Assembly: GCF_002776575.1 (NCBI RefSeq)
Contig: NZ_CP022548.1
Location: forward strand, 1,503,001-1,567,000
From: Sphingorhabdus sp. YGSMI21
GTDB taxonomy: Bacteria; Pseudomonadota; Alphaproteobacteria; Sphingomonadales; Sphingomonadaceae
Reading direction: 5' to 3'
DNA: 64,000 nucleotides
The notes beneath the pieces were generated by a model that did not search any database, was not told the DNA's origin, and saw nothing but the letters and a program-made list of their open reading frames with translations. Numbering within the stretch: position 1 is the stretch's first letter; each line of letters starts with the position of its first letter. Position numbers and translations under genes: made by a program. This document shows, piece after piece, positions 15,252 through 61,871 of the stretch.

Positions 15252-15639
15252 CCAAATTCACGGCTTTTCGCGCCGGACCGGAATTGGCAATTGTGAAACC
15301 GGCCGGGTGGCGATCTGTTTATCCGGTGATCGGACAATGTCGCCTTAACCTGCTGTATCCGGCGGATTTCCGATGCAGGTTCAATCTCAGCGCAGCTTGC
15401 AGGGATATCGTCATTTTCAAACAACAACACGATTCTGGGACATGTATCGCAAGATGGCTGCACTACACCTATGCTTGGCTCTTCAAAACGGGCCGGCTGG
15501 GCTTGTCATTGTGCATGTCGGCGCATCGCCGATTGACCTGCTTCGCAGGCGAGGCAATGGCCTGGCATAACCAGCCTGCCGTGCGCCACCTTTTTGCTCT
15601 GCATGACAATGTGCTGCAGCCAACCCCGGGAACGACAAA
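15252..15639. other. Long intergenic region with an IclR-type operator
   Basis: These 388 bases separate the signalling operon from the first gene of the catabolic region. They contain one near-perfect copy of the 17-bp palindrome (15320-15336) and a partial half-site TATCCGGCGGATT starting at 15356. No small gene with a believable start and ribosome site was seen. The distance from the operator to the next start (about 300 bp) implies a long untranslated leader or an unseen second promoter. Confidence 0.5.
15320..15336. promoter_or_regulatory. IclR-type operator, copy 1 (upstream of the AllA-like/methyltransferase/MFS genes)
   Basis: TATCCG-GTGAT-CGGACA is a 6-5-6 inverted repeat matching the recurrent motif TRTCCG-N5-CGGAYA at every arm position. 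It is the leftmost copy and marks the left edge of the proposed regulon. Confidence 0.65.
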
Positions 15640-16218
15640 ATGACCGACCAGAAAATCATTCATTTGCCGCTGATCGAGGCCAGCGCCGAGGCATTGGCAC
15701 CATTCGGCCAGATTATCGGCAGCGACAGCGGAGTGAAGCCGGTGGCCGTTGATTTCTACAAGGGCGCGGTGGCCATGTCCTATCCGGTGAAATTCCAATG
15801 CGAACATCCGGTCGAGGTGTCGCTGGCCAATCTCGGTTTCCGCCCCGGCGAAGTCCGTTATATGGAGCGGCATTTCCAGCATACACAGGCGTTCATCCCG
15901 CTCGGCGGAAGACCGTTCGTTGCGGTCATGGCTCCTCCGAATGATAGCGACCTGCCGGACCTATCCTCGGTAAAGGCCTTCCTGTTCGACGGATCAGCCG
16001 GCTTCCAACTCAATCTCGGAACCTGGCACGAATTCCCCTTTGCGCTGCAGCCTGACACGGAAATGATCGTTCTGCTTTCCAGTCAAACCGGCTATGATCT
16101 GAAAGCCAAAGACGCGGTGACCGAAGAAGCATTCGGTCCCGATCTGGACAAGAAGGATATCGCCGCGCGCACGGGTACATTGTTCCAATTCGAGTGTAAG
16201 GAGTTTAGAAATGGTTGA
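15640..16218 (+). CDS. AllA-family (ureidoglycolate lyase-like) protein
   Basis: A 192-residue protein of the ureidoglycolate-lyase cupin family. The signature RHFQHTQAFIPLGGRPFVAVMAPP carries the His residues that usually surround the active site, and GTWHEFPFAL supplies another His. In classical allantoin breakdown AllA splits ureidoglycolate into glyoxylate and urea. Here there is no allantoicase or urea gene next to it. It is the first gene before a small unknown protein and a methyltransferase, and overlaps the former by 8 bases. The real substrate may therefore differ, with the fold call firmer than the reaction. Confidence 0.75.
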   Translation: MTDQKIIHLPLIEASAEALAPFGQIIGSDSGVKPVAVDFYKGAVAMSYPVKFQCEHPVEVSLANLGFRPGEVRYMERHFQHTQAFIPLGGRPFVAVMAPPNDSDLPDLSSVKAFLFDGSAGFQLNLGTWHEFPFALQPDTEMIVLLSSQTGYDLKAKDAVTEEAFGPDLDKKDIAARTGTLFQFECKEFRNG

Positions 16219-16567
16219 GCGCAAGAATCAGGATCGAACGAGCCGATCCAAGGGCAGCCAGCCGATTGTTTTCGAAGATGAAAGACAGGATGCGCTGGCG
16301 GGCATGGTGCTGTCGCTTCTCGGCGAAGTAATGGTCCTGAAGGACCGGCTTGACGCGAACGAGCGGATGCTGGAATCTGCCGGTTTGCACGGCCCCGAGG
16401 ACGTCGACCGTTTTTCGCCCGATTCTGCCGTGAACCAGCACCGCGGCGCATATCGGCAAGCCATATATGACCGTGTGCTCGGCAGCGCGCTGGAACGGCT
16501 GCTCCCCGAATCCCTGGTGGAGCAAACCGCATATGACGGCGTCGTAAGCGAAGTGGCATCCGACTGA
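16211..16567 (+). CDS. Small methyltransferase-associated protein, copy 1 (unknown function)
   Basis: A 118-residue soluble protein without signal peptide or known domain. The central segment LLGEVMVLKDRLDANERMLESAGL aligns with LAGDLCVVRDRLDSAERVAKANGL in the 43505-43876 product, including the spacing of the charged residues. Both genes are adjacent to related methyltransferases (16594-17784 and 43873-45102). A GTAAGGAG ribosome site supports the start at 16211. The helical heptad-like pattern suggests a small helical partner protein, perhaps a subunit of the methyltransferase. That is inference from context only. Confidence 0.7.
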   Translation: MVERKNQDRTSRSKGSQPIVFEDERQDALAGMVLSLLGEVMVLKDRLDANERMLESAGLHGPEDVDRFSPDSAVNQHRGAYRQAIYDRVLGSALERLLPESLVEQTAYDGVVSEVASD

Positions 16568-16593
16568 ATAATATTGGCGAAAGGACCCAAATC

Positions 16594-17784
16594 ATGCAGA
16601 AACAGCTCAATCACGCACATTTCGGCCATCCGGTCATGCCGCAGGCGACGCATGACGAACAGGCCATGGAGGACCATTTTCTGGCGATGCGGGCATGGAC
16701 CAACCGCAATGTCGATCCGCTCGACCGCCGCCTGCTCGACGAGGTTATCGTGCCAGAGGTCGAAGCCGCGACAAGCAAGAAACCGACAAGCAGCGCGCAT
16801 GTCCGCAAATCGCTGGAAGCCCATCCGCTGCACCAATATTGGCTCACTCTGTCGCTCCACTACCAGGACCGCATCTGGCGCTCGATCGATGGTTCGATAG
16901 CGCGCCAATATGAAGAACTGGCCGAGAAGGTGGAACAGCAGACCAGTGCCCCGATCGGCAGTCTGACGCTTGACCCCGATCTCGAAATTCCCCGTTATAT
17001 CGGCGAGTTCGACCATCACCGCATGCCGGGCAGCTATACCATCGATACGGCGGAAAATGACTTCCGGGCCGGCGCGCTTTATGACCGTTTCTCTTCGACC
17101 TATCTGCGCAATATGAACGGTGGCTGGAAAAACGACGGGCGCGGCCACACGCTCGCCAGCCATATGAAAGATTTCTATCCGGACTTCGAACCGAAACGCA
17201 TTCTCGATCTGGGTTGTTCGATCGGCCAGAGCACGGTGGCCATTGCCAGCGCCTATCCGGATGCCGAGATCCACGCGATTGACCTTGGTGCGCCTATGCT
17301 GCGCTATGGCCATGCCAGAGCGGAAGCCATGGGGGTTCCTATCCATTTCAGCCAGCAGAATGCCGAATGCACCAATTTTGAAGATGCAAGCTTCGATCTC
17401 GTGACCTCCTCGGCCATGTTCCACGAGACCTCGGCCAAGGGCATGCGGGCGATCATGCGCGAATGCCACCGGCTGCTGCGTCCAGGCGGGATTATGTGCC
17501 ACGTGGAAGTACCTCCCCGGCATGAACATCTCTCTCTCTGGGACCAGATGCGCTGTGACTTTGAATCTCATTACAACAACGAACCGTTCATGACATCCCT
17601 CGCCCGGACCGACTGGGTAGAAGTGGCGGAAAAAGCGGGCTTTGAACGCGAAAACGTCCTGGTGGGATACCGCAAGGGTGTACCCGAACTGAAGGTCGAC
17701 CGTGCCGATTTCTTCACTGAAGGCCATCCCGAAGGCCGGACGCTACTCGGCAGCTGGTACGCCTGTTCGGCGCAAAAAGCCTAA
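16594..17784 (+). CDS. Class I SAM-dependent methyltransferase with a large N-terminal domain, copy 1
   Basis: A 396-residue protein. The C-terminal half (about 195-330) is a class I methyltransferase: motif I ILDLGCSIGQSTV, acidic residue in IHAIDLGAPM, a FDLVTSSAMFHET segment and RLLRPGGIMCHVEV. The first 190 residues form a domain I cannot name, containing ATHDE near the start and PRYIGEFDHHRMPG just before the catalytic part. These motifs recur in the product of 43873-45102. The gene follows its small partner by 26 bp with an AAAGGA ribosome site. The methyl acceptor is unknown; O- or N-methylation of the catabolised compound is possible. Confidence 0.85.
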   Translation: MQKQLNHAHFGHPVMPQATHDEQAMEDHFLAMRAWTNRNVDPLDRRLLDEVIVPEVEAATSKKPTSSAHVRKSLEAHPLHQYWLTLSLHYQDRIWRSIDGSIARQYEELAEKVEQQTSAPIGSLTLDPDLEIPRYIGEFDHHRMPGSYTIDTAENDFRAGALYDRFSSTYLRNMNGGWKNDGRGHTLASHMKDFYPDFEPKRILDLGCSIGQSTVAIASAYPDAEIHAIDLGAPMLRYGHARAEAMGVPIHFSQQNAECTNFEDASFDLVTSSAMFHETSAKGMRAIMRECHRLLRPGGIMCHVEVPPRHEHLSLWDQMRCDFESHYNNEPFMTSLARTDWVEVAEKAGFERENVLVGYRKGVPELKVDRADFFTEGHPEGRTLLGSWYACSAQKA

Positions 17785-17795
17785 GCGTTGAAAAC

Positions 17796-17835
17796 AACGG
17801 CCTGCAGCGCGATTCCGGTCCCGCAGCAGGCCGTT
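17796..17835 (+). terminator. Hairpin between methyltransferase and MFS genes (terminator or attenuator)
   Basis: AACGGCCTGC (17796-17805) and GCAGGCCGTT (17826-17835) form a perfect 10-bp stem with a 20-base loop, followed by TCCCG rather than a long T-run. Since the next gene lies on the same strand 48 bases later, it may reduce rather than end transcription. Confidence 0.45.
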
Positions 17836-17882
17836 TCCCGCTTTCTGGCAGACCGCGAAAGTCCCCATATTCCGGAGTTGCG

Positions 17883-19250
17883 ATGACCGTTTCAATCCAT
17901 TCGGCGGACTCCCCGGTTTCCCAAGGCGTAATGCTCAAATACGGCATCGGGCAACTCGGCGCCCAGATTTTTCGCGACACGCCCGCAGTCCTTCTTCCGA
18001 TATTCATGATCACCATGCTCGGTATTCCTGCGTGGCTGGCCGGCCTGGCGATCATGGCACCCAAATTATGGTTGGTTATCTGCGATCCTCTGGTTGGGTC
18101 CTTTTCCGACCGGCTGGAATCCCGCTTCGGCCGTTCTCCGATGCTGGCGGTGGGCGCCGTTGCATCCTCGATCGGCTTTTTTGCATTGTTCACGGTATCG
18201 GATTTTGGTTCGCCCTGGCTGGCAGCGGCCGTGGTTTCTCTGACCTTCTTGCTGGCCCAGACGGGTTTCAGCGCTTTTTCTGTTCCCTATCTTGCCCTGG
18301 CCGGTGAACTGTCCCGCGACACGCACGAGCGGACGAAGATATTGGTGTACCGGATGATCTTCACCATGATCGGCCTGATACTCGGCATTGGTGTTGCCCA
18401 GCCAATGGCCGAATGGTTCGGTGGCGGCCGTTTCGGCTGGATGGCGATGGGTGCAGTGCTGGCTATAGTCTGTGCTTTCACCATGCTGACCACGGCGCTC
18501 AGCCTTTGGCGGTTTCGCGCGCCCCGGAAGGTGCAGGAACAGGTCGGTATGATCGAGCAGTTGCGGCGCGGCTGGCGAAACAAGCCATTCATGATGATAA
18601 ACATGACCAACTTCTTCCAGTCGATCGGGTCGTCATGCTCCTTCTCGGTGGTCGGTCTGATCTTCATCTACTCGATTGGCGACATTTCCCTGCTTTGGCC
18701 CTTCATGGTCGCGATGACCGTTGGATCGCTGCTCAGCCAGCCGGTCTGGCTTGCCAAGTCCAGACGCTATGGGAAACTCCCGGTATTTGTCTTTGCTTGC
18801 ATCGCCTGGGGCCTGGTCACGCTTAGCTGGCTGGCGCTGGGTACGTTCGGAGACACAAGCTGGGCCGTCCCCGTGCTCGGGCAGGTGCGCATCGAGGTGA
18901 TACTGGTTATCCTGCGCGCAGTGCTGATCGGCATCTTTAATTCCGGCTTTGTCCTGCTGGCAATATCCCTGTTCACCGATACGCTGAACTTTGGTAGCCA
19001 ACCGGACCAGGCACCGCAGGAGGGAAGCCTGTCCGGCATGTGGTCCGCCTCGGAGAAACTGGCCTTTGCCATCGGACCGCTCATCAGCGGTGCCGTCCTC
19101 TCCCTGTTCGGCTTCATGTCATCGACCGGCGGCGCAATCGAACAGTCGGAGACGGCCATTAACGGTGTCATTCTCTGTTATTCGCTCATTCCGGCGGCTA
19201 TCGTGATGATCAGCCTGGTCTGTCTGCGCCGATACAGCAAGATCATGTAA
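17883..19250 (+). CDS. MFS transporter, GPH/MelB-like, copy 1
   Basis: A 455-residue polytopic protein with about 12 membrane segments. The loop after helix 2 reads LVGSFSDRLESRFGRSPM, and FRDTPAVLLPIFMI in the first helix is shared in form with the carrier at 28509-29900. These features fit the glycoside-pentoside-hexuronide:cation symporter branch (MFS_2). A GGAG ribosome site lies 6 bases before the start. It is in line with the AllA-like and methyltransferase genes. Substrate cannot be read from sequence; two further members of this branch lie at 19404-20780 and 28509-29900. Confidence 0.85.
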   Translation: MTVSIHSADSPVSQGVMLKYGIGQLGAQIFRDTPAVLLPIFMITMLGIPAWLAGLAIMAPKLWLVICDPLVGSFSDRLESRFGRSPMLAVGAVASSIGFFALFTVSDFGSPWLAAAVVSLTFLLAQTGFSAFSVPYLALAGELSRDTHERTKILVYRMIFTMIGLILGIGVAQPMAEWFGGGRFGWMAMGAVLAIVCAFTMLTTALSLWRFRAPRKVQEQVGMIEQLRRGWRNKPFMMINMTNFFQSIGSSCSFSVVGLIFIYSIGDISLLWPFMVAMTVGSLLSQPVWLAKSRRYGKLPVFVFACIAWGLVTLSWLALGTFGDTSWAVPVLGQVRIEVILVILRAVLIGIFNSGFVLLAISLFTDTLNFGSQPDQAPQEGSLSGMWSASEKLAFAIGPLISGAVLSLFGFMSSTGGAIEQSETAINGVILCYSLIPAAIVMISLVCLRRYSKIM

Positions 19251-25608: not shown

Positions 25609-25631
25609 TCTCGTTTGTCAGGCTTTTTCGG

Positions 25632-32582: not shown

Positions 32583-32599
32583 TGTCCGCTCTGCGGAAA
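32583..32599. promoter_or_regulatory. IclR-type operator, copy 2 (SDR/permease divergent promoter, SDR side)
   Basis: TGTCCG-CTCTG-CGGAAA is a 6-5-6 inverted repeat with 11 of 12 arm positions in the consensus. It lies 50 bases upstream of the SDR start, with its centre 60 bp from the copy at 32643-32659. Confidence 0.65.
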
Positions 32600-45183: not shown

Positions 45184-45200
45184 TATCCGGCAGGCGAATA
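45184..45200. promoter_or_regulatory. IclR-type operator, copy 6
   Basis: TATCCG-GCAGG-CGAATA matches 11 of 12 arm positions. It lies between the methyltransferase start (45102) and the DUF1838 start (45289), about 80-90 bases from each. Confidence 0.65.
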
Positions 45201-47978: not shown

Positions 47979-48324
47979 TGGTTCGATTGCTCCATTATCA
48001 AACTGCTGGATGCGGGGCCAGGATTGCACGCGAAATGGTGCGGTCGGCTTTATCCGTTGGTCGGTCAGCGCAAGGCGGGTTTTGCCCGATCCCTGCGCGG
48101 CTGTCCACGTTCGATGCAAAGGCTGCGCGGGCCAGTCCGCCGGTTGGCCGAAATGGAACGGGTCTGGCCAATATCCCGGAGTTACAGGCCGGTACCGAGA
48201 ATGGCGGTCATAAAAACATTGGTCTCTTGCGCGGTCATCGGGCGCCGCGCGGCGACTGCGTGACTTTGGCTGTGGCTGACACGCCGCCCTTGGAGCTTGA
48301 AGCTTTCGGGACTTTTGGCGCGCG
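47979..48324. other. Intergenic region upstream of the FAD oxidase
   Basis: These 346 bases lie between two minus-strand genes. They contain an IclR-type operator (48051-48067), which should belong to the promoter of the FAD oxidase gene. Open frames on the opposite strand run through here but have no ribosome site or recognisable product. No terminator was clear after the isochorismatase-like gene. Confidence 0.5.
48051..48067. promoter_or_regulatory. IclR-type operator, copy 7
   Basis: TATCCG-TTGGT-CGGTCA matches 11 of 12 arm positions of the consensus and lies 73 bases upstream of the FAD oxidase start at 47978. Confidence 0.62.
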
Positions 48325-51001: not shown

Positions 51002-51029
51002 ATTCATGGTCTCCTGAAGGGCGCTGGAA

Positions 51030-52073: not shown

Positions 52074-52216
52074 TGCGTTTTTCTCCATTGCATAGCTTGC
52101 GGCGATCCGGTCGATATCATAAATTGCGCCACCAACAGGACGGCGCACGAAATCCTCGACCACCACCGTTATTCCTATATTGAGTGACAGATCAGGTTTG
52201 AAGCCACTAGCGGGAA

Positions 52217-52233
52217 TGTCCGACTGGTGGGCA
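52217..52233. promoter_or_regulatory. Weak IclR-type operator candidate
   Basis: TGTCCG-ACTGG-TGGGCA has a perfect left arm and a right arm matching 4 of 6. It lies 89 bp from the good copy at 52306 and 144 bases upstream of the minus-strand operon, which could be its target. Confidence 0.35.
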
Positions 52234-52305: not shown

Positions 52306-52322
52306 TGTCCGTATAGTGGACA
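52306..52322. promoter_or_regulatory. IclR-type operator, copy 8
   Basis: TGTCCG-TATAG-TGGACA is an inverted repeat matching 11 of 12 arm positions; extending it outward gives TTGTCC and GGACAA. It lies 110 bases upstream of the deacetylase start at 52433. Confidence 0.65.
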
Positions 52323-52432: not shown

Positions 52433-53347
52433 ATGGAATATGATTACGTCCCCCTGCCCGAGCGCCAGCCTCTAAAATGGCCCAATGGTGCGAAAGTCGC
52501 CTTGATCCTGACCTTTAATCTGGAGACTTGGGACCTTACAAAGGATACGGACAAGCCTTATTATGCTGGCGGTCCGTCGATTTTACCGGATATTCTTCCG
52601 GGAAACACTCCCGATTTTCCGAATTATAGCTGGCGCGAATATGGGCAGCGTGTCGGGATCTGGCGCCTGTTCGACCTGTTCGATAAGCTGGGAGTCAAGG
52701 CAAGCTGCACGACCAATGCGGTGACCTTCGAGCGGCGCAAGGCGATGACCGATGCAGTGCTCGAACGGGGCTGGGAACTGCTGACCCACAATTGGGAACA
52801 GGGTGAATTGCTGACCAATTTTGCCGGTGACCCGGCGAAAGAGCGCGAAATTGTGCTGCGGACACTCGACCAGTTTGAAAAATTCACCGGTCGCAAGTCG
52901 AAAGGCTGGTTGTCATCATCGTTGCGCGGCACGCTCCAGACGGCCGACATTCTCGCTGAATATGGCTGCAGCTTTTACTGCGATATCATGAATGACGACC
53001 AGCCATATATGCTGCGCACGCCGAACGGCCCGATTGTCTCGGTTCCCTATTCGAACGAGATCAATGATTTCACCTTCATTACACGCAAGAATTTTACCAC
53101 GGACCAGTTCCGTGATGCGTTGATTGAAGAACTGGATGTCTTGTATGAAGAAGGCAAGACCAGCGGCCGGATTATGAATGTCGGTCTCCACCCCCATGTT
53201 TCGGGCCGGGCACACCGTGTGCGGGCGCTCCGCGAATTCATCGAACATGCCAAGTCTTTGCCTGGTGTGTGGTGGGCAACGCGTGAAGAAATTGCCGAAT
53301 GGTATCGGGCCAACCACGAGAGTCACATTCCCGGGCAACTGGGATGA
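52433..53347 (+). CDS. Polysaccharide-deacetylase-fold hydrolase (PuuE allantoinase-like)
   Basis: A 304-residue protein of the metal-dependent deacetylase fold in the branch of the purine-pathway allantoinase PuuE: WPNGAKVALILTFNLETWD near the start, RVGIWRLFDLFDKLGVKASCTTNA, WELLTHNWEQGEL, GWLSSSLRGTL and the late MNVGLHPHVSGRAHRVRALREFIEHAK. The metal-binding pattern is not fully canonical: the first motif has NLETWD rather than the usual TFDD, and the HxxxH motif is changed to HNWEQ. The true substrate is likely a C-N bond in a ring or amide, possibly different from allantoin. First gene of an operon with an FAD monooxygenase and an aldehyde dehydrogenase; stop and next start overlap (ATGA). 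Confidence 0.8.
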   Translation: MEYDYVPLPERQPLKWPNGAKVALILTFNLETWDLTKDTDKPYYAGGPSILPDILPGNTPDFPNYSWREYGQRVGIWRLFDLFDKLGVKASCTTNAVTFERRKAMTDAVLERGWELLTHNWEQGELLTNFAGDPAKEREIVLRTLDQFEKFTGRKSKGWLSSSLRGTLQTADILAEYGCSFYCDIMNDDQPYMLRTPNGPIVSVPYSNEINDFTFITRKNFTTDQFRDALIEELDVLYEEGKTSGRIMNVGLHPHVSGRAHRVRALREFIEHAKSLPGVWWATREEIAEWYRANHESHIPGQLG

Positions 53348-54495
53348 GCCGCACCGAAAAGATAGTGATTGTCGGCGGTGGCATTGCGGGAATGAGCACA
53401 GCTGCCGCGATTGCCAAGCAGGGCTTCTCTGTCGTGCTGCTCGAATCCGCTCCGGAATTTGGCGAGATAGGGGCCGGGGTTACTTTATCTCCCAACGCAA
53501 TGAAGGGCCTCGACTTTATCGGCGTATGTGAGGATGTCGCGGCCGCCGGTGTCGAACCGAGCCGGCAGCGCATCCAGCATTGGGAAGATGGACGGACACT
53601 GGTAACCATGGATCGTTCGACCCAGCGCGAAAAATATGGGGCGCCCTATGTCACTATCCACCGGGCAGACCTGCACGATCTGCTGACCGGTGCCGCGAGG
53701 GCAGCAGGCGTGGACATGCGCACCGACAGCGCGGTAGTCGACAGCGAGGGAGCAACCGCGATCCTTGCTGACGGAAGTCGGGTAACGGGCGACCTGTTGA
53801 TCGGTGCTGACGGCGTGAAATCGGTTATTCGCCAGCGCTTTGAACCAGCAGAGCCGCATTTTACCGGGCATGTCGCCTGGCGCGCACTCGTCCCGGTAAC
53901 GCCGGAGCTGCAAAGCCTGTCCGATTTTCCCGGTATCATCATCGGGCCCGGGGCAATGATCACCCGCTATAATATTCGCGGCAGCAGCGCGATGAATCTG
54001 GTTTTCTTCGCCCGCCAGGAGGGGTGGACGGATGATGGCTGGGCAATTCCCGCGGATCCTGCCGAGATCGAGACCATCTACGCGGACTGGTGCGACGATG
54101 CGGCAAAATTGATCGCGGCGGCCTGCAAGCAGCCGATGTTCAAATGGGCGATCAACGCGCGATCGGCGCTGCCGAACTGGATCATTGACAATCAGGTGAC
54201 GTTGATCGGTGACGCCGCGCACGCCATGACACCATTTCTCGGCCATGGCGCGGCCTGCGGCATTGAAGATGCCATCATCATGGCGCGGGCTCTGGCGGCC
54301 TCGGCGGACATTGCTGAGGGTTTGTCGCGCTATCAGGCGGCTCGGCATGAACGGGCAACCTGGATCCAGTCGGAATCAAATGCCAACGCCGACCGGATGC
54401 AGGCGCAAGATGCCGCCTTATTCGGAATCGGCGAGACAAAGGACGAGGAATCGCTCGGACTTTTCAATTATGACTGTCGTACGGAGCCAGTGTAA
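53344..54495 (+). CDS. FAD-dependent aromatic monooxygenase (salicylate hydroxylase/6-hydroxynicotinate monooxygenase type)
   Basis: A 383-residue class A flavoprotein monooxygenase. The dinucleotide motif is IVIVGGGIAGMSTAAAIAKQG, the second FAD/NAD(P)H motif is LLIGADGVKSVIR, and the third is TLIGDAAHAMTPFLGHGAACGIEDA. The length and order match the salicylate 1-hydroxylase, 6-hydroxynicotinate 3-monooxygenase and MHPCO group, which hydroxylates or opens hydroxylated aromatic or pyridine rings. Start at 53344 overlaps the deacetylase stop. The neighbouring amidase and LeuCD-type hydratase would suit the products of a cleaved N-heterocycle, though no ring-cleaving dioxygenase is present in the window. 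Confidence 0.87.
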   Translation: MSRTEKIVIVGGGIAGMSTAAAIAKQGFSVVLLESAPEFGEIGAGVTLSPNAMKGLDFIGVCEDVAAAGVEPSRQRIQHWEDGRTLVTMDRSTQREKYGAPYVTIHRADLHDLLTGAARAAGVDMRTDSAVVDSEGATAILADGSRVTGDLLIGADGVKSVIRQRFEPAEPHFTGHVAWRALVPVTPELQSLSDFPGIIIGPGAMITRYNIRGSSAMNLVFFARQEGWTDDGWAIPADPAEIETIYADWCDDAAKLIAAACKQPMFKWAINARSALPNWIIDNQVTLIGDAAHAMTPFLGHGAACGIEDAIIMARALAASADIAEGLSRYQAARHERATWIQSESNANADRMQAQDAALFGIGETKDEESLGLFNYDCRTEPV

Positions 54496-56000
54496 TGAGT
54501 GAATCAACAGCATTTGACGGCCATGAAATCGCACCGGAAACGGGCGCGTTTCTGGACAAGCGCGGCAAGTTGCTGATCGGCGGCCAATGGGTCGACGGCA
54601 GCGGCGTCATGGCAAACCGCGATCCGGCAACGGGAATGGTGCTTGCCGAGTTCGAAACCGGGGGGGCGGCAGAAGTGGACAGAGCCGTGGCAGCCGCGCG
54701 CTTGGCTTTTCGGGGTCCTTGGCGCCGGATGACGGCATCGGAGCGGATGGCCCTGATGACACGACTGGCGCGGATCATGGAACAGAAGGCGCAACTGCTG
54801 ACCGAACTGGATATCCTCGACAACGGAATGCCGAGTTTCATCGCTGGACTGACGACCACCAATTGTGTGGAGATGGTCGATTATTACGCCGGCGCGATCA
54901 TGCGGATCGAGGGGTCGACCATGGTCCCGCCGCGGCATATTGCAGCAGAAACCGAAGCGCTCACCTACACGTTGAAAGAACCGGTCGGTGTGGTCGGGCA
55001 GATCGTGCCTTGGAACGTGCCGTTGTCTACCGCGATTCTGAAGCTGGCACCGGCGCTGGCGGCGGGTTGCACTGTGGTGATGAAACCATCGGAGGAAACA
55101 CCGCTGTCCGCGCTCGCGCTCGGCCAGATGATAATTGAAGCCGGTTTCCCCGCAGGCGTCGTTAATATTGTCAATGGTCTGGGGGCCGAAGCGGGTGCGG
55201 CGCTGGCGGCGCATGATGATGTCGATAAAATTTCCTTTACCGGATCCACCCGGACCGGTCGGGCGATTATCCAGGGGGCCATGGGCAATCTGAAGAAAGT
55301 GTCGCTGGAACTAGGCGGCAAAAGTCCGGTAGTCGTCATGCCCGATGCAGATTTGAACCTGGCAATTCCCGGTGTCGCTATGGCGACGTTCTTTTTGCAG
55401 GGCCAGAACTGTATGGCGGGCACCCGGATATTCGCGCATGCCGACATCCACGACGCACTGCTGGAGGGGCTGGCCGCTTTTGCTGACGCGATGACATTGG
55501 GTCATGGGCTGGACCCTGCGACACAGCAGGGGCCGATGGTCTCGGCTGCCCATGCCGACAAGGTAATGGGCTTTATCGAGCGGGCCAAACAGTCCGGTGC
55601 CAATCTGCTGGCCGGCGGCGAACGGCTGGAACGGCCGGGCAATTTCATCCGGCCGACGATTTTTACCGGATGTACCCGGGATATGGAAGTCATGCGCGAC
55701 GAAATTTTCGGTCCGGTTATGGCCGTGCAAAAGTTCGACACGCTCGACATCGATGCCATAGCAAACCTCGCCAATGATACGCCTTATGGCCTATCAGCCA
55801 GCGTCTGGACCCAAGATATATCGACCGCGCACCGCGTCGTCAGCCGGGTGCGCGCCGGTCATGTCTCGATCAATTGCCATGGTGCAGTCGGAACGAATGT
55901 CCCGTTTGGCGGATATGGCCAGTCGGGCTGGGGTCGGGAATTCGGGGCCGCCGGCCTGGAAGCCTATCTGGAAACCAAGGCGGTAACAGCGCGCCTCTAG
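54495..56000 (+). CDS. Aldehyde dehydrogenase, copy 1
   Basis: A 501-residue NAD(P)-dependent aldehyde dehydrogenase. The catalytic Glu is in SLELGGKSPVVV and the catalytic Cys in QGQNCMAGTR; the cofactor segment is VGVVGQIVPWNVPL with KPSEETPLSAL and FTGSTRTGRAI. PFGGYGQSGWGREFG near the end completes the family. It shares the operon with the deacetylase and FAD monooxygenase (start overlaps the stop of the latter, TAATG). It should oxidise an aldehyde from ring or side-chain breakdown to an acid. A second, related aldehyde dehydrogenase is encoded at 61943-63448. Confidence 0.9.
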   Translation: MSESTAFDGHEIAPETGAFLDKRGKLLIGGQWVDGSGVMANRDPATGMVLAEFETGGAAEVDRAVAAARLAFRGPWRRMTASERMALMTRLARIMEQKAQLLTELDILDNGMPSFIAGLTTTNCVEMVDYYAGAIMRIEGSTMVPPRHIAAETEALTYTLKEPVGVVGQIVPWNVPLSTAILKLAPALAAGCTVVMKPSEETPLSALALGQMIIEAGFPAGVVNIVNGLGAEAGAALAAHDDVDKISFTGSTRTGRAIIQGAMGNLKKVSLELGGKSPVVVMPDADLNLAIPGVAMATFFLQGQNCMAGTRIFAHADIHDALLEGLAAFADAMTLGHGLDPATQQGPMVSAAHADKVMGFIERAKQSGANLLAGGERLERPGNFIRPTIFTGCTRDMEVMRDEIFGPVMAVQKFDTLDIDAIANLANDTPYGLSASVWTQDISTAHRVVSRVRAGHVSINCHGAVGTNVPFGGYGQSGWGREFGAAGLEAYLETKAVTARL

Positions 56001-56029: not shown

Positions 56030-56806
56030 TCAGTTGTTGCTGAGCCCGTGACTGATTGCTGCGGCTGTAGCCTTCAGATCATCCAGATAATTTTCCAGCG
56101 CGTCGGTCAGCTTCATTGCCGCGACGAAGAACACCATCGTCATGGCTGCTTCAAAATGCCCATTCTTGAAGATCGGAACGGCGATCGATGATGTTTTTCC
56201 CGGAGTCAGGTTGAAATGGTTGCGGCCTTGTGTTGCATAGCCCTCGTCCCTGATCTGCTGCACATTCAGGCCAATTTCCGCGGTGGAAAGATAATCGATG
56301 TCGATCTCCTGTGAAATACGCATGAAGCGCAGAATCATTTCGCGGTCTTCGTCCTGGGCAAAGGCCATAGACAATTTGCCCGATGCGCTGTCGAGTATCG
56401 GGACGGTAAAACCCGGATAATAATGTTCGAATGTCAGCGACGAATTTGCATGGGTGCTGTCGCGCAGCATCATGTTGCGGCCTACGCGAACGGCGATCGA
56501 AACGGGCCAGCCGACCCGTTTGGTCAAATCGACGATGTGGGGACGGGCCACACTGACGAGTTGGTCTTCATGCTGGAAACCTGTGGCGAGTGTTTGTACC
56601 AGCGCAGTTGCGCGATAGCGTTTGCGGGCCGGCTCCTGCTCCACCAGACCTTCATATAATAATGTCTGAACGATACGGCATGCGGTCGGATAAGGCACTT
56701 GGGCGGCCTTGGCGATTTCCATCATCGTCATCGAGCCGTGTCGGTTGATCGCCCGCAGGGCGGAAAACGCCCGTGTGATAGAGCGAATCGGTACACCTTT
56801 TTCCAT
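56030..56806 (-). CDS. IclR-family transcriptional regulator, proposed master regulator of the region
   Basis: A 258-residue protein. The N-terminal winged helix-turn-helix (about 5-70) reads SITRAFSALRAINRHGSMTMMEIAKAAQVPYPTACRIVQTL, and the rest is the IclR effector domain with SIAVRVGRNMMLRD, DSASGKLSMAFAQ, DEGYATQGRN and SIAVPIFKNGHFEAAMTMVFF. The start has AGGAGG 10 bases upstream. The 5' region (56807-56939) contains three operator-like repeats at 20-21 bp spacing, suggesting self-regulation. It is the only transcription factor in the catabolic region. I infer that it binds the TRTCCG-N5-CGGAYA copies from 15.3 to 61.9 kb and senses the substrate or an intermediate. Confidence 0.9.
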   Translation of the reverse strand: MEKGVPIRSITRAFSALRAINRHGSMTMMEIAKAAQVPYPTACRIVQTLLYEGLVEQEPARKRYRATALVQTLATGFQHEDQLVSVARPHIVDLTKRVGWPVSIAVRVGRNMMLRDSTHANSSLTFEHYYPGFTVPILDSASGKLSMAFAQDEDREMILRFMRISQEIDIDYLSTAEIGLNVQQIRDEGYATQGRNHFNLTPGKTSSIAVPIFKNGHFEAAMTMVFFVAAMKLTDALENYLDDLKATAAAISHGLSNN

Positions 56807-56882: not shown

Positions 56883-56899
56883 TAACCGCGTGTCGGATA
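56883..56899. promoter_or_regulatory. IclR-type operator, copy 9 (in front of the regulator gene)
   Basis: TAACCG-CGTGT-CGGATA matches 11 of 12 arm positions. Its centre (56891) is 20 bp from that of the copy at 56903-56919, two turns of the helix. It lies 77 bases upstream of the regulator start. Confidence 0.65.
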
Positions 56900-56902: not shown

Positions 56903-56919
56903 AATCCGTTGTACGGAAA
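56903..56919. promoter_or_regulatory. IclR-type operator, copy 10 (in front of the regulator gene)
   Basis: AATCCG-TTGTA-CGGAAA is a 6-5-6 inverted repeat matching 10 of 12 arm positions. It adjoins copy 9, separated by three bases. Confidence 0.6.
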
Positions 56920-56939: not shown

Positions 56940-57797
56940 TTAGCGCTTTGCCCATTTCTTCTCGAAGTCCCAGACCTCTTCAAAACCGATGAGGGAACAG
57001 AATTCGCTAAAGTCGAAAATGCCCTCCGGCTGCCCGATGCCCTCTTCCTTGAGGTCGATCAGCGCTTTCTCCATTGCAGCAGCGGCCGCCAGACTGGTCA
57101 GAGACGGGTAGATCGCGAAACTATAGCCTATTTCCGCCAAAACCGATGCGTTCGGGACAGGTGACTTCCCACCGTTGGACATATTTGCCATCACGGGTAT
57201 TGCAAAACTGGCACAGGCCTGACGCATTTCCTCTTCGCTGGTCAGCGCCTCCGGAAAAACTATATCTGCCCCGGCTTTCTCGTAGGCATCCAAACGACGC
57301 AGAACACCATCCATCCCTTCGCTTTCCCGGGCATCGGTGCGCGCGACGATGAGAAAATTCTCGTCTTCTTTGGCATCGACCGCGACCTTGATCTTCTCCA
57401 CCATATCTTCCAGCGGTATCAGGCGCTTGTACGGGGTGTGCCCGCATTTCTTCGGGAATTCCTGATCTTCCAGCTGAATCGCCGTCACACCGGAGGCTTC
57501 ATAGCCTTTTACGGTATGATGGACGTTCAAAAGGCCGCCATAGCCGGTGTCTCCGTCGGCGATCACTGCCGAGTTACTGGTGCGCGCCAGCGTTTCCATG
57601 CGGTTGCGCATCTCGGTATATGTGGCAATCCCGGCGTCAGGCAATCCCGACGCCGAAGCGGTCAACCAATATCCGGTACCATATACGACGTCGAAGCCGA
57701 CCTTGTTGGCGATCACTGCCGTAATCATGTCCTGGATACCCGGGATCACGAAAAATTTTCCCGAAGCGAGTTTTTCCCGCAAGATAGGGTTTGCCAT
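56940..57797 (-). CDS. Isocitrate-lyase/PEP-mutase-superfamily lyase (dimethylmalate or methylisocitrate lyase type)
   Basis: A 285-residue TIM-barrel lyase. The strand with metal-binding Asp is VIADGDTGYGG, and AIQLEDQEFPKKCGH contains the catalytic Cys (KKCGH) present in isocitrate, methylisocitrate and 2,3-dimethylmalate lyases but absent from oxaloacetate hydrolases or PEP mutase. IVARTDARES and DIVFPEALTSEEE complete the active site. The reaction should be retro-aldol cleavage of a malate- or isocitrate-like acid to pyruvate or glyoxylate plus a second acid. With the LeuCD-type hydratase it resembles the dimethylmaleate route of nicotinate fermentation. It is encoded just downstream of the HyuA/HyuB pair. 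Confidence 0.85.
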   Translation of the reverse strand: MANPILREKLASGKFFVIPGIQDMITAVIANKVGFDVVYGTGYWLTASASGLPDAGIATYTEMRNRMETLARTSNSAVIADGDTGYGGLLNVHHTVKGYEASGVTAIQLEDQEFPKKCGHTPYKRLIPLEDMVEKIKVAVDAKEDENFLIVARTDARESEGMDGVLRRLDAYEKAGADIVFPEALTSEEEMRQACASFAIPVMANMSNGGKSPVPNASVLAEIGYSFAIYPSLTSLAAAAAMEKALIDLKEEGIGQPEGIFDFSEFCSLIGFEEVWDFEKKWAKR

Positions 57798-57827
57798 TAT
57801 TGTCTGTCCTTGAAAATCAGGGTGTTC

Positions 57828-59693
57828 TTATTCAGCCGTCTGCCATTGCGGTTGCTTCGGCGCGGGCAGTCCGGTTTCCGCCAAACAATTGGCACGCAGT
57901 GTCTCGATATCGGGGCCATAGTTGAAGGTTGGCAAATCGCCGTCACGCGCATCACGCATCTCGGTGCGAAGGGCCTCGGTCGCCGACGAATCAACCTTGC
58001 CATCGGTCAAGACTACGCCGTAACGGCGCGCGCCTTCGGCGGTCACAAGACCCTGTTTCAGTTCAACCGCGAGCAATTCCGGATCGCGTTCCAGCGGGTC
58101 CCCCCAGCCGCCGCCGCCCCATGTCACGAAATGCAACTGGTCGCCGGCTCCCACTTCATAATCCTCGAGCTTGTTGCCTAGCACAATTTCGGTGCCGTCA
58201 TTCTTGACCAGCAATTTGCGCGCACGAGCGCCCGGTTCGCCGCCATTGACGCCCCAGGGCGGCACGAACCAGCGGTCATCATGGATGGCGATTACGCCGG
58301 GCTCGAGGAAACGATAGACCATGTTGATACCATTGCCGCCGCGGTGCAGGCCCGGTCCGCCGGAGTCTGCCACCGTCTCGTAGCGTTCGATTCGCAGCGG
58401 GAAATAGCGCTCCAGAAATTCGTTCGGGACGTTGGTGAAGCCGGGCCACAGCGAGTGTCCGTCCGGCCCGTCGCCCAGTGGACGCCCGGGAATGCCGCCA
58501 AAGCCAATCTGGAATAGCTGGAACCATTTGCCGTCCTTGTCGGTCCCGGCATAGAATAGATGGGGCGATGACGAGAAGCCCGCGGCGTTGAGAAATTCCG
58601 GAGTCTTTTGACCGAGCAAGCCACCGAGAATGTCGAACAGGCGGCCAAGCGCGTGGGTCCGTCCGGACAGGGCTGCCGGAAATTTCGGTTTCAGCAGCGA
58701 TCCTTCCGGGATGCGGACATCGATCAGATCATAAAATCCGTCGTTGAACAGGATTTGCGGATCGAAAACCATGATCATGTAGATGCCGAAGAACATCTTC
58801 ATCATATTTTCATTCAGCAGGAAGTTGATCGAAGCTTTGGATTGTGGATCGGTGCCATCGAAATCAAGAATGACCCGTCCGTTTTCGCGCCACATCGTAC
58901 AACGAATCTTGTAAGGACCATAGCCCATGCCGTCGTCGCAGATATAATCTTCAAAGCTGACCTTCTCTTCGCTAACCGATGTCTCGATCAATTTCTGCAT
59001 TGCGCGGTGGTTCCGTTCGAGCAGAAGGTCGGTGGCCGAAGCGTAAACATCTTCGCCAAAGCGGTCGCACAGTTCGACCACCCGGCGCGCTGCCACGCGG
59101 CAGGACGCAATTAGCGCGTTGAGATCTGCCTTGCACCAGTCCGGCGTACGGGTCTGGTGCATGATCAGCTTGATCAGATCTTCATTATATTCGCCGCTCT
59201 TCCAGATCTTGATTGGCGGGATGCGGACGCCTTCCTGAAAGATGCTGGTGGCGTCGATCGGCATCGATCCGGGTACTTTGCCACCGATATCGGACATATG
59301 GCCGAACATCGAAGTGTAGGCGACCAGACGGCCGTCCTTGAACACCGGCATCAGCACCAGCCAGTCGTTGGAGTGGCTGATCGCACCGGCCACCGAATAG
59401 GGATCGGAGAGGAAAATCAGGTCGCCTTCCTCGACGGTTCCATCAAAACCTTCGAGGAACGGGCCGATATAGCTCCCGAACTGGCCGACAATCATCCGGC
59501 CCTTGCTGTCGGCAATGAGCGGGAAGGCATCGCCTTGCTCGCGGATGCCCGGAGACATGGCGGTGCGAACCAACGTGGCGTCCATTTCAATACGTGCGTT
59601 GCGCAGCGCGTTTTCAATGACCTCCAGCGTAACGGGGTCGATCGCCACCCTGTTGAAGGGTGTTTCGTTAGATTGGATAATCTGTGCGGGCAT
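57828..59693 (-). CDS. HyuB-type subunit of an ATP-dependent hydantoinase/oxoprolinase/carboxylase
   Basis: A 621-residue protein of the hydantoinase B/oxoprolinase family: AIDPVTLEVIENALRNARIEMD near the start, IREQGDAFPLIAD, HSNDWLVLMPVFKDGRLVAY and MFGHMSDIGGKVPGSM, followed by PGFTNVPNEFLERYFPLRIERYETVADSGGPGLHRGG, the most conserved family block. With HyuA it forms enzymes that use ATP to open hydantoins, oxoproline or caprolactam, or to carboxylate acetone and acetophenone. It begins 10 bases after the HyuA-like stop and has a GAGGAGG ribosome site. Which of these reactions applies cannot be read from the sequence. Confidence 0.9.
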   Translation of the reverse strand: MPAQIIQSNETPFNRVAIDPVTLEVIENALRNARIEMDATLVRTAMSPGIREQGDAFPLIADSKGRMIVGQFGSYIGPFLEGFDGTVEEGDLIFLSDPYSVAGAISHSNDWLVLMPVFKDGRLVAYTSMFGHMSDIGGKVPGSMPIDATSIFQEGVRIPPIKIWKSGEYNEDLIKLIMHQTRTPDWCKADLNALIASCRVAARRVVELCDRFGEDVYASATDLLLERNHRAMQKLIETSVSEEKVSFEDYICDDGMGYGPYKIRCTMWRENGRVILDFDGTDPQSKASINFLLNENMMKMFFGIYMIMVFDPQILFNDGFYDLIDVRIPEGSLLKPKFPAALSGRTHALGRLFDILGGLLGQKTPEFLNAAGFSSSPHLFYAGTDKDGKWFQLFQIGFGGIPGRPLGDGPDGHSLWPGFTNVPNEFLERYFPLRIERYETVADSGGPGLHRGGNGINMVYRFLEPGVIAIHDDRWFVPPWGVNGGEPGARARKLLVKNDGTEIVLGNKLEDYEVGAGDQLHFVTWGGGGWGDPLERDPELLAVELKQGLVTAEGARRYGVVLTDGKVDSSATEALRTEMRDARDGDLPTFNYGPDIETLRANCLAETGLPAPKQPQWQTAE

Positions 59694-59703
59694 AAGTCCC
59701 TCC

Positions 59704-61752
59704 TCAGGCCAGGTTGATTAGAATATTGCCGACTTGATCGACGGTGCCGACGCAGTCCGCCTCGATCAGGGTGGTGGAGTCCATTTCGATTACGATCGCC
59801 GGTCCGGGAATTACGTCGCCGGCCAGCAGCTTGGAACGATCATAGATCACCGCCGCCTGCATTTTGCCGTCAGCCCAGAGCTGGTGATCGCGAATCTTCG
59901 CCGCCGCCGGGTCACCGTTGCCGCTTTTCAGCTTGGGTGCCGGCAGGTCCAGTTCTGGACCAAGCGCAACCGCACGGATATTAACCAGTTCATGGGCGCT
60001 TTCCATGTTGAAGGTGAACAGGCGGCGATGCTCTTCATCAAACCGGTCCGTCACCCCGGCAAGCCCGTCTGCCAACAGGCTCTTCTCGTCGATCGAGAGC
60101 GGCACTTCAAAAGCCTGACCCTCATAGCGGACATCCAGTTCAAACAGCGAGGTAATATCCTCGTCGGCAATGCCCTCTTCCATCAGTTCAGCGCGTGTCT
60201 GTGCGGATATTTCCTGCAGCAGGCCCATCACCTCTGCCTCGTCGGTTTCGTTGAAGCGGCGGGAGAAACTGCGGGCCGTTTCCGTGCGCATCCGGGTGGT
60301 AGCGTCACCTAGCGCACACAGTACACCGGGCGAAACCGGCGACACGGCTGGCCAGCTGTCCATCAAACGGGCCACCGCATTGACGTGAAGCGGTCCAGCG
60401 CCGCCGAATCCCATCAGCGCAAAGTGCCGCGGATCATAGCCTTGCTGGACCGAGATCATCCGCAAGGCGCCAAACATATTCTCGTTGACAATATCAATGA
60501 TGCCGCGGGCCGCTTCCATAAGGCTGATCCCCAGTGTATCCGCGATTTTCTGGATGGATTTTTCCGCGCCTTCGCGGTCGAGTGTGAACGATCCGCCCAG
60601 CAGGGATTCGGGTAGATAGCCCAATACTACATTGGCATCGGTAACGGTTGGCTCGGTGCCGCCCTTTCCATAAGCAACCGGACCAGGAACCGCGCCGGCC
60701 GATTCCGGACCAACGCGCAATGCGCCGGTGAGCTCGGGAACATAGGCGATGGAACCGCCGCCGGCGCCGACGGTCTTGACGTCGAGCGCCGATGCCCTAA
60801 CCGACAAATGGCCGACTTCGGTTGTCCGCTGCCGCCGCGCTTCCAGATTTTCGATCAGTGCCACGTCCGTCGAAGTGCCGCCGACATCCAGGGTCAGGAT
60901 ATTCTTGATGCCGGCGTTGCGGCCGACCCATATAGCGCCGGTGACACCGCCCGCAGGACCGGACATCAACAGCGAAACCGGATGGTCCTCCGCTTTTTCC
61001 GAGGACATAAGGCCACCATCCGAGCGAAGCAGAGACAGAGAGCCGTTCATTTCGCATGAGCGCAGGCTATCCCGCAGATTGCGCACATATTTGCCGACCA
61101 CCGGACGGACCGCTGCATTTGCAACCGTGGTCAGGGTCCGCTCATACTCCTGCATTTCGGGCAGGACTTGGTGGCTGAGAGAGAAGGGGATGTCGGGCAT
61201 GATCTCTGCCGCCAGTTCGCCGACGCGGATTTCATGCGCACCGTTCAGATAGGAATTGACCAGACTGACGGTGAGCGCTTCAATGCCGGAATTCTTGAGA
61301 TCTTCCAGCACCCGGCTGATCTCCTTTTCATCGATCGGGGTGATCTCCTCACCCTGGGCATTGATCCGTCCGGCGATTTCGAAACTGTCCTCGAGAGCGG
61401 CGAGCGGTTCGGGTTTCGGCCACACGATCCAGCCGGCCAAGCCGCCGGGTACGAAGCTGCGGGCAATCTGCATGATCTGGCGATAGCCATCGGTGGTGAT
61501 CAGCCCGACGCGCGCGCCTTTGCCTTCCAGCATGGCGTTGGTGGCAACGGTCGTACCGTGCAGGAAAAATTCGATCCCCGATGGACTGATGCTGGCTTCT
61601 TGGCAGATTGCATTGACGCCGTTCAGAATGCCTTGTGAACTATCCTGAGGAGTAGAAGGCGTCTTGTGTCGCCAGAAATTGCCATTTTCTTGATCAAGCA
61701 GTAACAGATCCGTAAACGTACCGCCGACGTCTACTCCCAAACGATAGGACAT
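59704..61752 (-). CDS. HyuA-type (ATP-binding) subunit of an ATP-dependent hydantoinase/oxoprolinase/carboxylase
   Basis: A 682-residue protein of the hydantoinase A family with an actin-like ATPase fold: the first phosphate loop is LGVDVGGTFTDLLL, HGTTVATNAMLE is the conserved loop after it, and ILTLDVGGTSTDVALIE is the second phosphate loop. It ends in VIEMDSTTLIEADCVG. This length (about 680) fits hydantoinase, caprolactamase and acetone-carboxylase-type subunits. First gene of a minus-strand operon HyuA-HyuB-lyase, with an operator about 100 bases upstream shared with the divergent aldehyde dehydrogenase gene. Confidence 0.9.
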   Translation of the reverse strand: MSYRLGVDVGGTFTDLLLLDQENGNFWRHKTPSTPQDSSQGILNGVNAICQEASISPSGIEFFLHGTTVATNAMLEGKGARVGLITTDGYRQIMQIARSFVPGGLAGWIVWPKPEPLAALEDSFEIAGRINAQGEEITPIDEKEISRVLEDLKNSGIEALTVSLVNSYLNGAHEIRVGELAAEIMPDIPFSLSHQVLPEMQEYERTLTTVANAAVRPVVGKYVRNLRDSLRSCEMNGSLSLLRSDGGLMSSEKAEDHPVSLLMSGPAGGVTGAIWVGRNAGIKNILTLDVGGTSTDVALIENLEARRQRTTEVGHLSVRASALDVKTVGAGGGSIAYVPELTGALRVGPESAGAVPGPVAYGKGGTEPTVTDANVVLGYLPESLLGGSFTLDREGAEKSIQKIADTLGISLMEAARGIIDIVNENMFGALRMISVQQGYDPRHFALMGFGGAGPLHVNAVARLMDSWPAVSPVSPGVLCALGDATTRMRTETARSFSRRFNETDEAEVMGLLQEISAQTRAELMEEGIADEDITSLFELDVRYEGQAFEVPLSIDEKSLLADGLAGVTDRFDEEHRRLFTFNMESAHELVNIRAVALGPELDLPAPKLKSGNGDPAAAKIRDHQLWADGKMQAAVIYDRSKLLAGDVIPGPAIVIEMDSTTLIEADCVGTVDQVGNILINLA

Positions 61753-61854
61753 AGCTTCCCCACATATTTACGCCTCGTGCGGGAATCGCACCGGCAAGGA
61801 TTTGGCGATATGGCTAAAGCAACTGTCGGCGATTGGGCTCATTTCGGATATTCT

Positions 61855-61871
61855 TATCCGACAAGCGATTT
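61855..61871. promoter_or_regulatory. IclR-type operator, copy 11
   Basis: TATCCG-ACAAG-CGATTT has a perfect left arm and a right arm with 3 to 4 matches. A further half-site CGGATA (61845-61850) lies four bases to its left in the opposite orientation. The site lies between HyuA (start 61752) and the aldehyde dehydrogenase (start 61943). Confidence 0.5.

Follow-up and report, generated by a model that had tools for sequence, protein, structure and literature searches.

A recurrent palindrome as the probable operator of an IclR-family regulator in a catabolic gene island of Sphingorhabdus sp. YGSMI21

In the 64-kb stretch of contig NZ_CP022548.1 from Sphingorhabdus sp. YGSMI21 that was analysed here (the window), a 17-bp palindrome recurs in the gaps between catabolic genes. 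Its best explanation, which we consider very probable from its distribution in this and related genomes, is that of an operator of the single IclR-family protein encoded in the region, which would govern a local catabolic regulon. One palindrome would be read by one regulator dimer and, in response to what is presumably one shared inducer, the protein would act on the gene that encodes it and on about 26 other catabolic genes of the window, from about 14 operators located between 15.3 kb and a point past the right end of the window. The presumed binder of the motif is encoded as follows:

56030..56806, - strand, IclR-family regulator, 258 aa

The initial annotation had listed eleven copies of the inverted repeat TRTCCG-N5-CGGAYA. 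Re-reading of the letters located a palindrome at all eleven positions, with an exact fit to this pattern at three of them (15320, 32643 and 40484), while the remaining eight deviate by one mismatch (32583, 35004, 45184, 48051, 52306 and 56883), by two (56903) or by three (61855). The listed copies are thus real, whereas three further sites, at 42460, 52217 and 63735, had been overlooked. The description of the copies as intergenic holds for all eleven after correction of three over-long reading frames, whose starts were placed at 35069 (M24 gene), 47978 (FAD oxidase) and 52088 (abhydrolase), and the location midway between divergent genes, ascribed to most of them, applies to seven. The shared CAG of the spacers was equally borne out and is stronger among relatives. 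The spacer is under constraint with MCWGK at its centre, and the motif is better written as TATCCG-MCWGK-CGGATA, with A/G and C/T tolerated near the outer end of each arm. In agreement with the initial annotation, the first 15.2 kb contain no copy with up to one mismatch and two copies with two (6718, 7338). Two matches within coding sequence, at 36196 and 39981, were rejected since they are absent from the syntenic relative G008. Predicted operators are listed below with scores from a matrix that was constructed from relatives alone, with the copies of the window left out, and with the score of the G008 counterpart where it was obtained:

15320..15336, left edge of the conserved island, 304 bp upstream of the AllA-like gene; score 17.7, G008 16.1
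32583..32599, weaker second copy in the SDR (-)/NCS1 permease (+) gap; score 3.9, G008 4.7
32643..32659, SDR (-)/NCS1 permease (+) gap, perfect match; score 16.6, G008 weaker, 4.2
35004..35020, gap between an abhydrolase gene (-) and the M24-LLM-LLM-abhydrolase operon (+); score 18.4
40484..40500, upstream of the gene of an unknown 302-aa protein (-), with an esterase gene (+) at 386 bp; score 19.7, G008 14.8
42460..42476, degenerate site before abhydrolase gene 42553 (+), three mismatches; score 3.2, G008 9.6
45184..45200, methyltransferase (-)/DUF1838 (+) gap; score 20.7, G008 15.7
48051..48067, 73 bp before the start (47978) of the FAD_binding_4 oxidase gene (-); score 11.9
52217..52233, second site in the abhydrolase/PuuE-like gap, two mismatches; score 4.5, G008 13.3
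52306..52322, gap between a lipoprotein-like abhydrolase gene (-) and the PuuE-like-FAD monooxygenase-ALDH operon (+); score 11.0
56883..56899, 77 bp upstream of the iclR ATG; score 25.5, the highest in the window
56903..56919, second, weaker iclR-promoter copy, in tandem at 20 bp from 56883; score 4.9, G008 16.2
61855..61871, HyuA (-)/ALDH (+) gap, three mismatches with a weak right half; score 8.3
63735..63751, 79 bp before the corrected ATG (63831) of an FAD monooxygenase gene; score 12.6, G008 11.5

With this matrix, the iclR promoter ranks first and six sites of the window score between 16.6 and 25.5, compared to a maximum of 8.3 for a reversed control. In 80 kb of flanking sequence, the best site reaches 12.4 and the next 7.2; the former is kept in G008 and precedes a gene common to relatives. 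Promoters with a site scoring 8 or more in the window also have one in G008, except for the SDR/NCS1 gap, where the counterpart is weak. The 17-mers at 48051, 52306 and 61855 are identical in both genomes, in the first case between diverged flanks, and the site at 35004 shows the same letters despite differing flanks. The counterpart of 40484 is found at almost the same place, that of 56903 is the stronger of the two and has an identical 20-bp offset, and the site at 63735 recurs at a similar offset before the FAD monooxygenase gene in six relatives. This gene extends past the end of the window. In G008, the site corresponding to 15320 is opposite an intact gene for cytochrome b561 that precedes AllA; no intact copy of the cytochrome gene was seen in the window.

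In the 4.06-Mb genome, 66 sites match the pattern with up to one mismatch, compared to 40 for the pattern read backward. Nine of them fall into the window, which accounts for 1.6% of the genome (1.04 expected; P about 1e-6), and 57 are found outside; all nine are intergenic after correction of the three starts. Three of the four perfect matches in the genome are located in the window, and the only one elsewhere, at 2533033, was rejected as it lies in coding sequence, inside a trypsin-like protease reading frame. The equal frequency in unrelated sequence that the initial annotation had named as an argument against its proposal was not seen. When two mismatches are allowed, the window contains 24 matches, a number reached in none of 100 shuffles, which on average contained 8.85 (sd 2.76), and since that many would be expected, such matches by themselves carry little weight. 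The latter number is also what speaks for chance palindromes or a mobile repeat, an origin that we find hardly credible in view of the enrichment, the intergenic placement, the conservation and the flanks of the copies, which by eye look unrelated to one another.

The candidate binder contains the N-terminal helix-turn-helix (PF09339, HTH_IclR; 42.6 bits, cut-off 22) and the C-terminal effector domain (PF01614, IclR_C; 49 bits, cut-off 24) of the IclR family, and solved IclR proteins were matched by profile. Members of this family attach to palindromic operators in dimeric or tetrameric form. Its closest NCBIfam model is PRK09834, which we take to be MhpR, at 153.4 bits (cut-off 299), and the TIGR02431 model of PcaR/PcaU/PobR scores 75.4 bits, far under its cut-off of 284.75. 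As both values are below the curated cut-offs, the protein was assigned neither as equivalog of the first nor as member of the second. The stretch PYPTACRIVQT of its recognition helix is common to most relatives. The claim that the region encodes no other transcription factor stood up among 50 Pfam-scanned reading frames, most of them located in the region and some of them in the wrong frame, with a minority of those under 120 aa covered. A response regulator is encoded just outside, at 14520-15251. Elsewhere in the genome, only one other protein matches the regulator at E <= 0.01; this protein shares 25% identity with it, and nothing upstream of its gene scores above -5.2.

The link between motif and regulator, initially drawn by inference, gains strong support from the regulator promoters of relatives, from co-occurrence, from the placement of sites in relatives outside mapped genes, and from conservation in G008, each of which could have spoken against it. 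Among 80 relative loci encoding regulators of 46-86% identity, 45 carry a perfect copy within -150 to +10 of the regulator start and 56 a copy with up to one mismatch (0.19 expected), which is absent from this interval in the other 24; in many relatives the site is found at about -90. In a wider interval of -350 to +30, a site scoring at least 12 is missing from 16 of 83 loci. Within the genus, 8 of the 11 genomes that encode the regulator contain the perfect TATCCG-N5-CGGATA, compared to 3 of the 21 that lack it (P 0.0018); within the family, the corresponding numbers are 13 of 18 and 25 of 181 (P 3e-7). These P values are too small because related genomes, and hence the relatives used here as samples, are not independent. 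In regulator-bearing genus genomes, 13 of 15 perfect sites are located within 50 kb of the regulator. With G008 excluded, 133 sites in relatives score 14 or more, 70 of them before iclR and 63 elsewhere; of the latter, none falls inside orthologues mapped at 38% identity or more, though these cover 38% of the bases. Operon-internal genes used as controls (LeuD, FAD monooxygenase, ALDH 54495 and HyuB) have a site before one of 121 orthologues, compared to 60 of 86 for iclR. The palindromes could instead be operators of a regulator encoded elsewhere, with the IclR gene as merely one of its targets, since a site that looks autoregulatory could belong to a higher regulator and since the 25 regulator-less family genomes still contain a perfect match, a frequency at about background level. 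We judge this to be very improbable, as the motif tracks the IclR gene in genus and family, with most genus sites in its vicinity, and as its 17 bp and tandem spacing of about 20 bp, together with a PobR operator that fits the pattern, correspond to published IclR group 1 operators (as printed in PMC8222616).

Beyond the genus, site conservation differs between promoters. A site scoring at least 10 precedes 13 of 19 methyltransferase, 5 of 6 DUF1838, 12 of 26 HyuA and 16 of 45 ALDH orthologues, and 3 of 7 in case of abhydrolase 42553. Sites with up to one mismatch precede 7 of 47 PuuE, 5 of 26 LeuC, 1 of 33 isochorismatase and 1 of 37 PrpB orthologues, and none in case of SDR (0/3), FAD oxidase (0/11) and abhydrolase (0/19), the latter two counted from uncorrected starts. 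These counts were made without G008 and without 7 of the 80 loci that duplicate genus stretches, from hits with at least 45% identity and at least 60% coverage and from upstream regions of at least 200 bases. This distribution could mean that only a core is functional, consisting of iclR, methyltransferase/DUF1838, HyuA/ALDH, M24 and the FAD monooxygenase at 63831, and that the weaker copies arose by chance or are decaying. Conservation outside the genus is indeed concentrated at the iclR, methyltransferase, DUF1838, HyuA and ALDH promoters, and in the window none of the sites at 56903, 32583, 42460 and 52217 reaches a score of 5. Still, we consider a restriction to this core less likely, since 42460 and 52217 are clearly better at the same place in G008, where 48051 and 52306 are letter-perfect.

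With respect to the extent of the regulon, the proposal of a single unit of about 47 kb was right in assigning operators to many promoters, but a block of nine genes at 19.4-31.7 kb contains no clear operator (no site scores above 5.8) and the regulon extends past the right end of the window, with a further site 2 kb beyond it, at 65976 on the scale of the window. The block therefore probably splits the regulon into separate parts. Within the block, a weak candidate at 28396 between TonB receptor and MFS genes (score 2.8; G008 5.8) blurs its operator-free status. On the basis of these scores, the block would appear to be under little or no control by the IclR regulator.

As far as their letters reveal, regulator and operator appear to be a further example of familiar IclR-type control, close to the published operator of PobR, a protein that controls one promoter region. 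The operator of PobR from Acinetobacter baylyi, TTGTCCGATSATCGGACAR, with arms TGTCCG-N5-CGGACA (PMC8222616, Table 1), fits TRTCCG-N5-CGGAYA in arms and spacing with no mismatch, and both proteins share the family and a role in catabolic control. Conversely, our palindrome prefers A as its second letter (TATCCG), has CWG in the middle of its spacer, and forms about 14 operators. Similarly, the operators of IclR group 1 are described to have a core GKTYCRYW3-4RYGRAMC of 17-18 bp with T-Y-C-R arms, including a TGT-11-ACA subgroup, many tandem sites with centres 18-22 bp apart, a location mostly at -20 to -80 from the start and aromatic-type catabolic regulons (Suvorova and Gelfand, 2021, PMC8222616). 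Our 17-bp palindrome shares this geometry, with T-C-C-G of TATCCG/CGGATA at core positions, and the 20-bp spacing of 56883 and 56903 conforms to the tandem arrangement; at this distance the two would be on one helix face and would probably bind two dimers. Among 83 loci including that of the window, 25 second sites scoring at least 1 are located at 12-60 bp from 67 main sites, 12 of them at 20-22 bp, and most loci have none. What differs from group 1 are the centre and the outer letters TAT/ATA, which have no exact match among the four subgroup consensuses printed there; in its main text, that study mentions neither sphingomonads nor Novosphingobium. The printed MhpR site GGTGCACCTGGTGCACA is unlike the TATCCG palindrome (PMC8222616), and PheR of Sphingobium sp. 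SHPJ-2, in related bacteria also an IclR-family regulator of a catabolic cluster, is described to recognize a GCAACG motif at one operon promoter, which has no resemblance to it (PMC13273656).

We lean towards a regulator that acts as an activator requiring a pathway compound. This preference stems from the nearest named models, PRK09834 and PcaR/PcaU/PobR, and from the position of most sites at about 50-110 bp before start codons. MhpR and the PcaR/PcaU/PobR group are activators, which argues against repression. Binding as a repressor that is released by a pathway compound is a less probable though realistic option, which would agree with sites close to start codons (23-50 bp) and with the repression of phenanthrene genes described for PheR (PMC13273656). 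Around the sites, promoter elements are so weak that they neither locate the operators relative to RNA polymerase nor favour one sign over the other.

The genes that would be under this control include the following groups:

15640..19250, + strand, AllA-like, methyltransferase and MFS genes (Pfam/NCBIfam)
35069..39442, + strand, M24 peptidase-like protein, two LLM flavin monooxygenases and abhydrolase (Pfam/NCBIfam; corrected start)
48325..52088, - strand, operon of abhydrolase, LeuC, LeuD and isochorismatase-like amidase, the latter matching 3ot4/3uao
52433..56000, + strand, operon of PuuE-like amidohydrolase, FAD monooxygenase and aldehyde dehydrogenase
56940..61752, - strand, operon of HyuA, HyuB (N-methylhydantoinase/caprolactamase-like) and PrpB-like lyase
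61943..63448, + strand, aldehyde dehydrogenase

The structures matched by the amidase are presumably those of maleamate amidase NicF, and the FAD monooxygenase of the 52433..56000 operon is related to 6-hydroxynicotinate 3-monooxygenase among others. The NCBIfam search covered part of the island proteins, and the reading frame at 43505-43924, initially labelled DUF1330, has no Pfam match. From the enzyme families, our guess at the probable role is the breakdown of a cyclic amide, imide or N-heterocycle, in which ring opening would lead to a maleamate-like half-amide and an alkylated maleate, followed by hydration and cleavage by the lyase. The recurrent partners HyuAB, PuuE-like protein, isochorismatase-like amidase, LeuCD, PrpB-like lyase and a maleate-isomerase-like protein point to one pathway, and scattered catabolic genes become one probable co-regulated unit, which narrows the search for the substrate. 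We tentatively propose that a single IclR lineage, with TATCCG-MCWGK-CGGATA as its operator, may govern such a pathway, via maleamate-like and alkylated maleate/malate intermediates to the PrpB-like lyase, in Novosphingobium, Sphingomonas, Sphingobium, Blastomonas and relatives and partly in Caulobacter, with operators recruiting species-specific accessory modules such as the NCS1 permease or M24 and flavin monooxygenases. In open-licence PubMed Central, we found no description of a pathway for this gene combination, no listed article with the term cyclic imide hydrolase, and neither an IclR protein with a TATCCG operator nor Parasphingorhabdus together with IclR. With this assignment, a regulator lineage that occurs in many sphingomonads has an operator that can be tested; beyond the operator and the clues to the substrate, the behaviour is that expected of an IclR regulator.

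A different palindrome, TATCCCGAAAGCGGACA, is located near three of four more distant IclR paralogues and in reversed form near the fourth region. It was rejected as upstream operator of these paralogues (L027-L030), whose upstream stretches match it with 5 to 7 mismatches at best. Because the change in site does not cleanly follow the recognition helix, as in L135, which combines the usual helix with a half-shifted site, we make no claim of co-evolution for a shifted, TTCG-N5-CGAA-type palindrome that precedes the regulators L027/L143, L128, L136, L140 and partly L138.

All eleven palindromes quoted in the initial annotation were recovered at their positions. The pattern describing them, TRTCCG-N5-CGGAYA, is matched exactly by three, with one mismatch by six, with two by one and with three by the copy at 61855. 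Allowing for up to two mismatches, the window contains 24 matches compared to 8.85 in shuffles, and two-mismatch matches alone thus constitute weak evidence. Up to one mismatch yields 66 matches in the entire 4.06-Mb genome (40 for a control pattern), 9 of them in the window, where 1.04 would be expected. There are four perfect matches genome-wide, three in the window and the fourth within a protease ORF.

The motif recurs in front of relatives of the IclR-family regulator encoded at 56030-56806 (minus strand). Searching reference genomes once with 15 aligned regulators provided the best 80 of 105 loci (46-86% identity), from Novosphingobium, Sphingomonas, Sphingobium, Blastomonas, Caulobacter and others. 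Between -150 and +10 of the regulator start, 56 of these best 80 contain a copy with zero or one mismatch (0.19 expected at the rate of the window's genome) and 45 a perfect copy, although the inclusion of close relatives leaves fewer than 80 independent tests. Many copies are located about 90 bp upstream of the start, those of a subgroup at about 30 bp. A matrix was constructed exclusively from 51 distinct sites of relatives, which were initially chosen using the annotated pattern, with the copies of the window excluded. It displays TATCCG arms followed by C or A, C, an A/T center and the mirror image, and the five-base spacer is therefore constrained. When applied to the window, the iclR promoter ranks first (25.5), followed by 45184, 40484, 35004, 15320 and 32643 (20.7-16.6), compared to a maximum of 8.3 in the reversed window used as control. 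Three more distant regulators (loci L128, L136 and L140) carry an upstream palindrome of the TTCG-N5-CGAA type instead of TATCCG-N5-CGGATA, with a similar CAG center.

Among 32 genomes of the genus, perfect TATCCG-N5-CGGATA sites are found in 8 of 11 with a regulator relative (15 sites, 13 within 50 kb of the regulator) and in 3 of 21 without (3 sites). The equivalent numbers for 199 genomes of the family are 13/18 and 25/181. In the window's genome, the regulator has one other match at E <= 0.01, which is 25% identical and whose upstream stretch contains no site. These sequence comparisons tie the motif, very probably, to the IclR regulator as its predicted operator.

By sequence, the predicted operator is placed with the IclR group 1 motifs (PMC8222616). 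There, the PobR operator as printed agrees with TRTCCG-N5-CGGAYA and tandem palindromes 18-22 bp apart are reported, compared to 20 bp in the iclR pair of the window. Alongside 67 main sites, we found 25 second sites, 12 at 20-22 bp. The window operator is distinguished by an outer arm of TAT instead of TGT and by a conserved center. Given the group likeness, the PobR fit and the tandem spacing, the predicted regulon would be new but of a known kind.

The predicted regulon is likely both shared and local. In G008, a syntenic relative, the regulator is 95% identical. The 17-mers at 35004, 48051, 52306 and 61855 are identical, those at 35004 and 48051 despite diverged flanks, while 15320, 45184 and the iclR pair are retained with small changes. 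Proceeding gene by gene in both genomes, a site is present in at least one of the two species at almost all promoters from 32.5 to 61.9 kb; the site closest to the esterase at 40886 is 386 bp distant. Genes inside operons score at most 4.1, except for 36196 (12.5), located in coding sequence, whose G008 counterpart scores -3.2. The initial list of eleven copies stands but lacked three sites:

42460, site weak in the window and clear in G008
52217, additional site
63735, site 79 bp upstream of the corrected start of an FAD monooxygenase gene crossing the window end

We slightly favor a role of the regulator as activator rather than repressor. At 61845-61871, a further box CGGATATTCTTATCCG was noticed by eye left of the weak 61855 site, so that the operator may comprise three boxes, an arrangement reported for other IclR proteins.

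Beyond the genus, sites with at most one mismatch precede orthologues of iclR (60/86), the methyltransferase (11/19) and DUF1838 (3/6), and sites scoring at least 10 also those of HyuA (12/26) and the ALDH at 61943 (16/45), compared to 1 of 121 operon-internal controls. Retention at up to one mismatch is poor for PuuE (7/47), LeuC (5/26), isochorismatase (1/33), PrpB (1/37), SDR (0/3), the FAD oxidase (0/11) and abhydrolase (0/19), with uncorrected starts used for the latter two. Out of 133 relatives' sites scoring at least 14, 70 are upstream of iclR, and although mapped orthologues cover 38% of bases, they contain none of the 63 others. Some relatives hold four to six sites inside a stretch of 20-40 kb.

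At the left edge, the G008 counterpart of the 15320 site faces a cytochrome b561 gene. This gene is intact in G008 (stretch L031:13774-14397) and overlaps the start of the AllA-like gene. No intact copy was seen in the window, where 15251-15640 is shorter than in G008 with the operator still in front. The island also includes a block conserved in G008:

19404-31748, nine genes (MFS transporters, APH-like kinase, abhydrolase, beta-lactamase-like esterase, TonB receptor, GFO/IDH oxidoreductase, FGE-sulfatase-like)

No clear operators were found for these genes in the window and G008 (maximum score 5.8). Position 28396, flanked by the TonB receptor gene and by an MFS gene for which the ORF start is probably placed too early, may represent a weak site, with three mismatches and scores of 2.8 in the window and 5.8 in G008.

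At genome position 1568976, about 2 kb past the window, a site upstream of a flavin amine oxidase gene is also retained in G008, and the predicted regulon thus extends beyond the window:

L053:1055-3515 (stretch shortly beyond the right end of the window), genes for a maleate-isomerase/arylmalonate-decarboxylase-like protein and for a flavin amine oxidase, the latter gene with an operator of its own

Among solved structures, the former protein is nearest, weakly, to maleate isomerase (48.6 bits). Recurrent partners of the regulator are a PuuE-like amidohydrolase, two ALDHs, a PrpB-like lyase, an FAD monooxygenase, an isochorismatase-like amidase, HyuAB and LeuCD. For HyuA, the nearest matches are N-methylhydantoinase (467 bits) and caprolactamase (533 bits, below the cut-off of 1000). 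Among the proteins run, curated NCBIfam cut-offs were passed only by LeuC and the LLM protein at 37197, the latter off the proposed route. Taken together, the partners, the maleate-isomerase-like protein and the HyuA likenesses tentatively suggest a pathway, for which we would give somewhat less than even chances, where a cyclic amide or imide ring would be opened, the half-amide hydrolysed, an alkylated maleate hydrated and the product cleaved by the lyase. A 302-aa protein (39491-40399), for which Pfam and NCBIfam gave no match, has an N-terminus that by eye appears twin-arginine-like.
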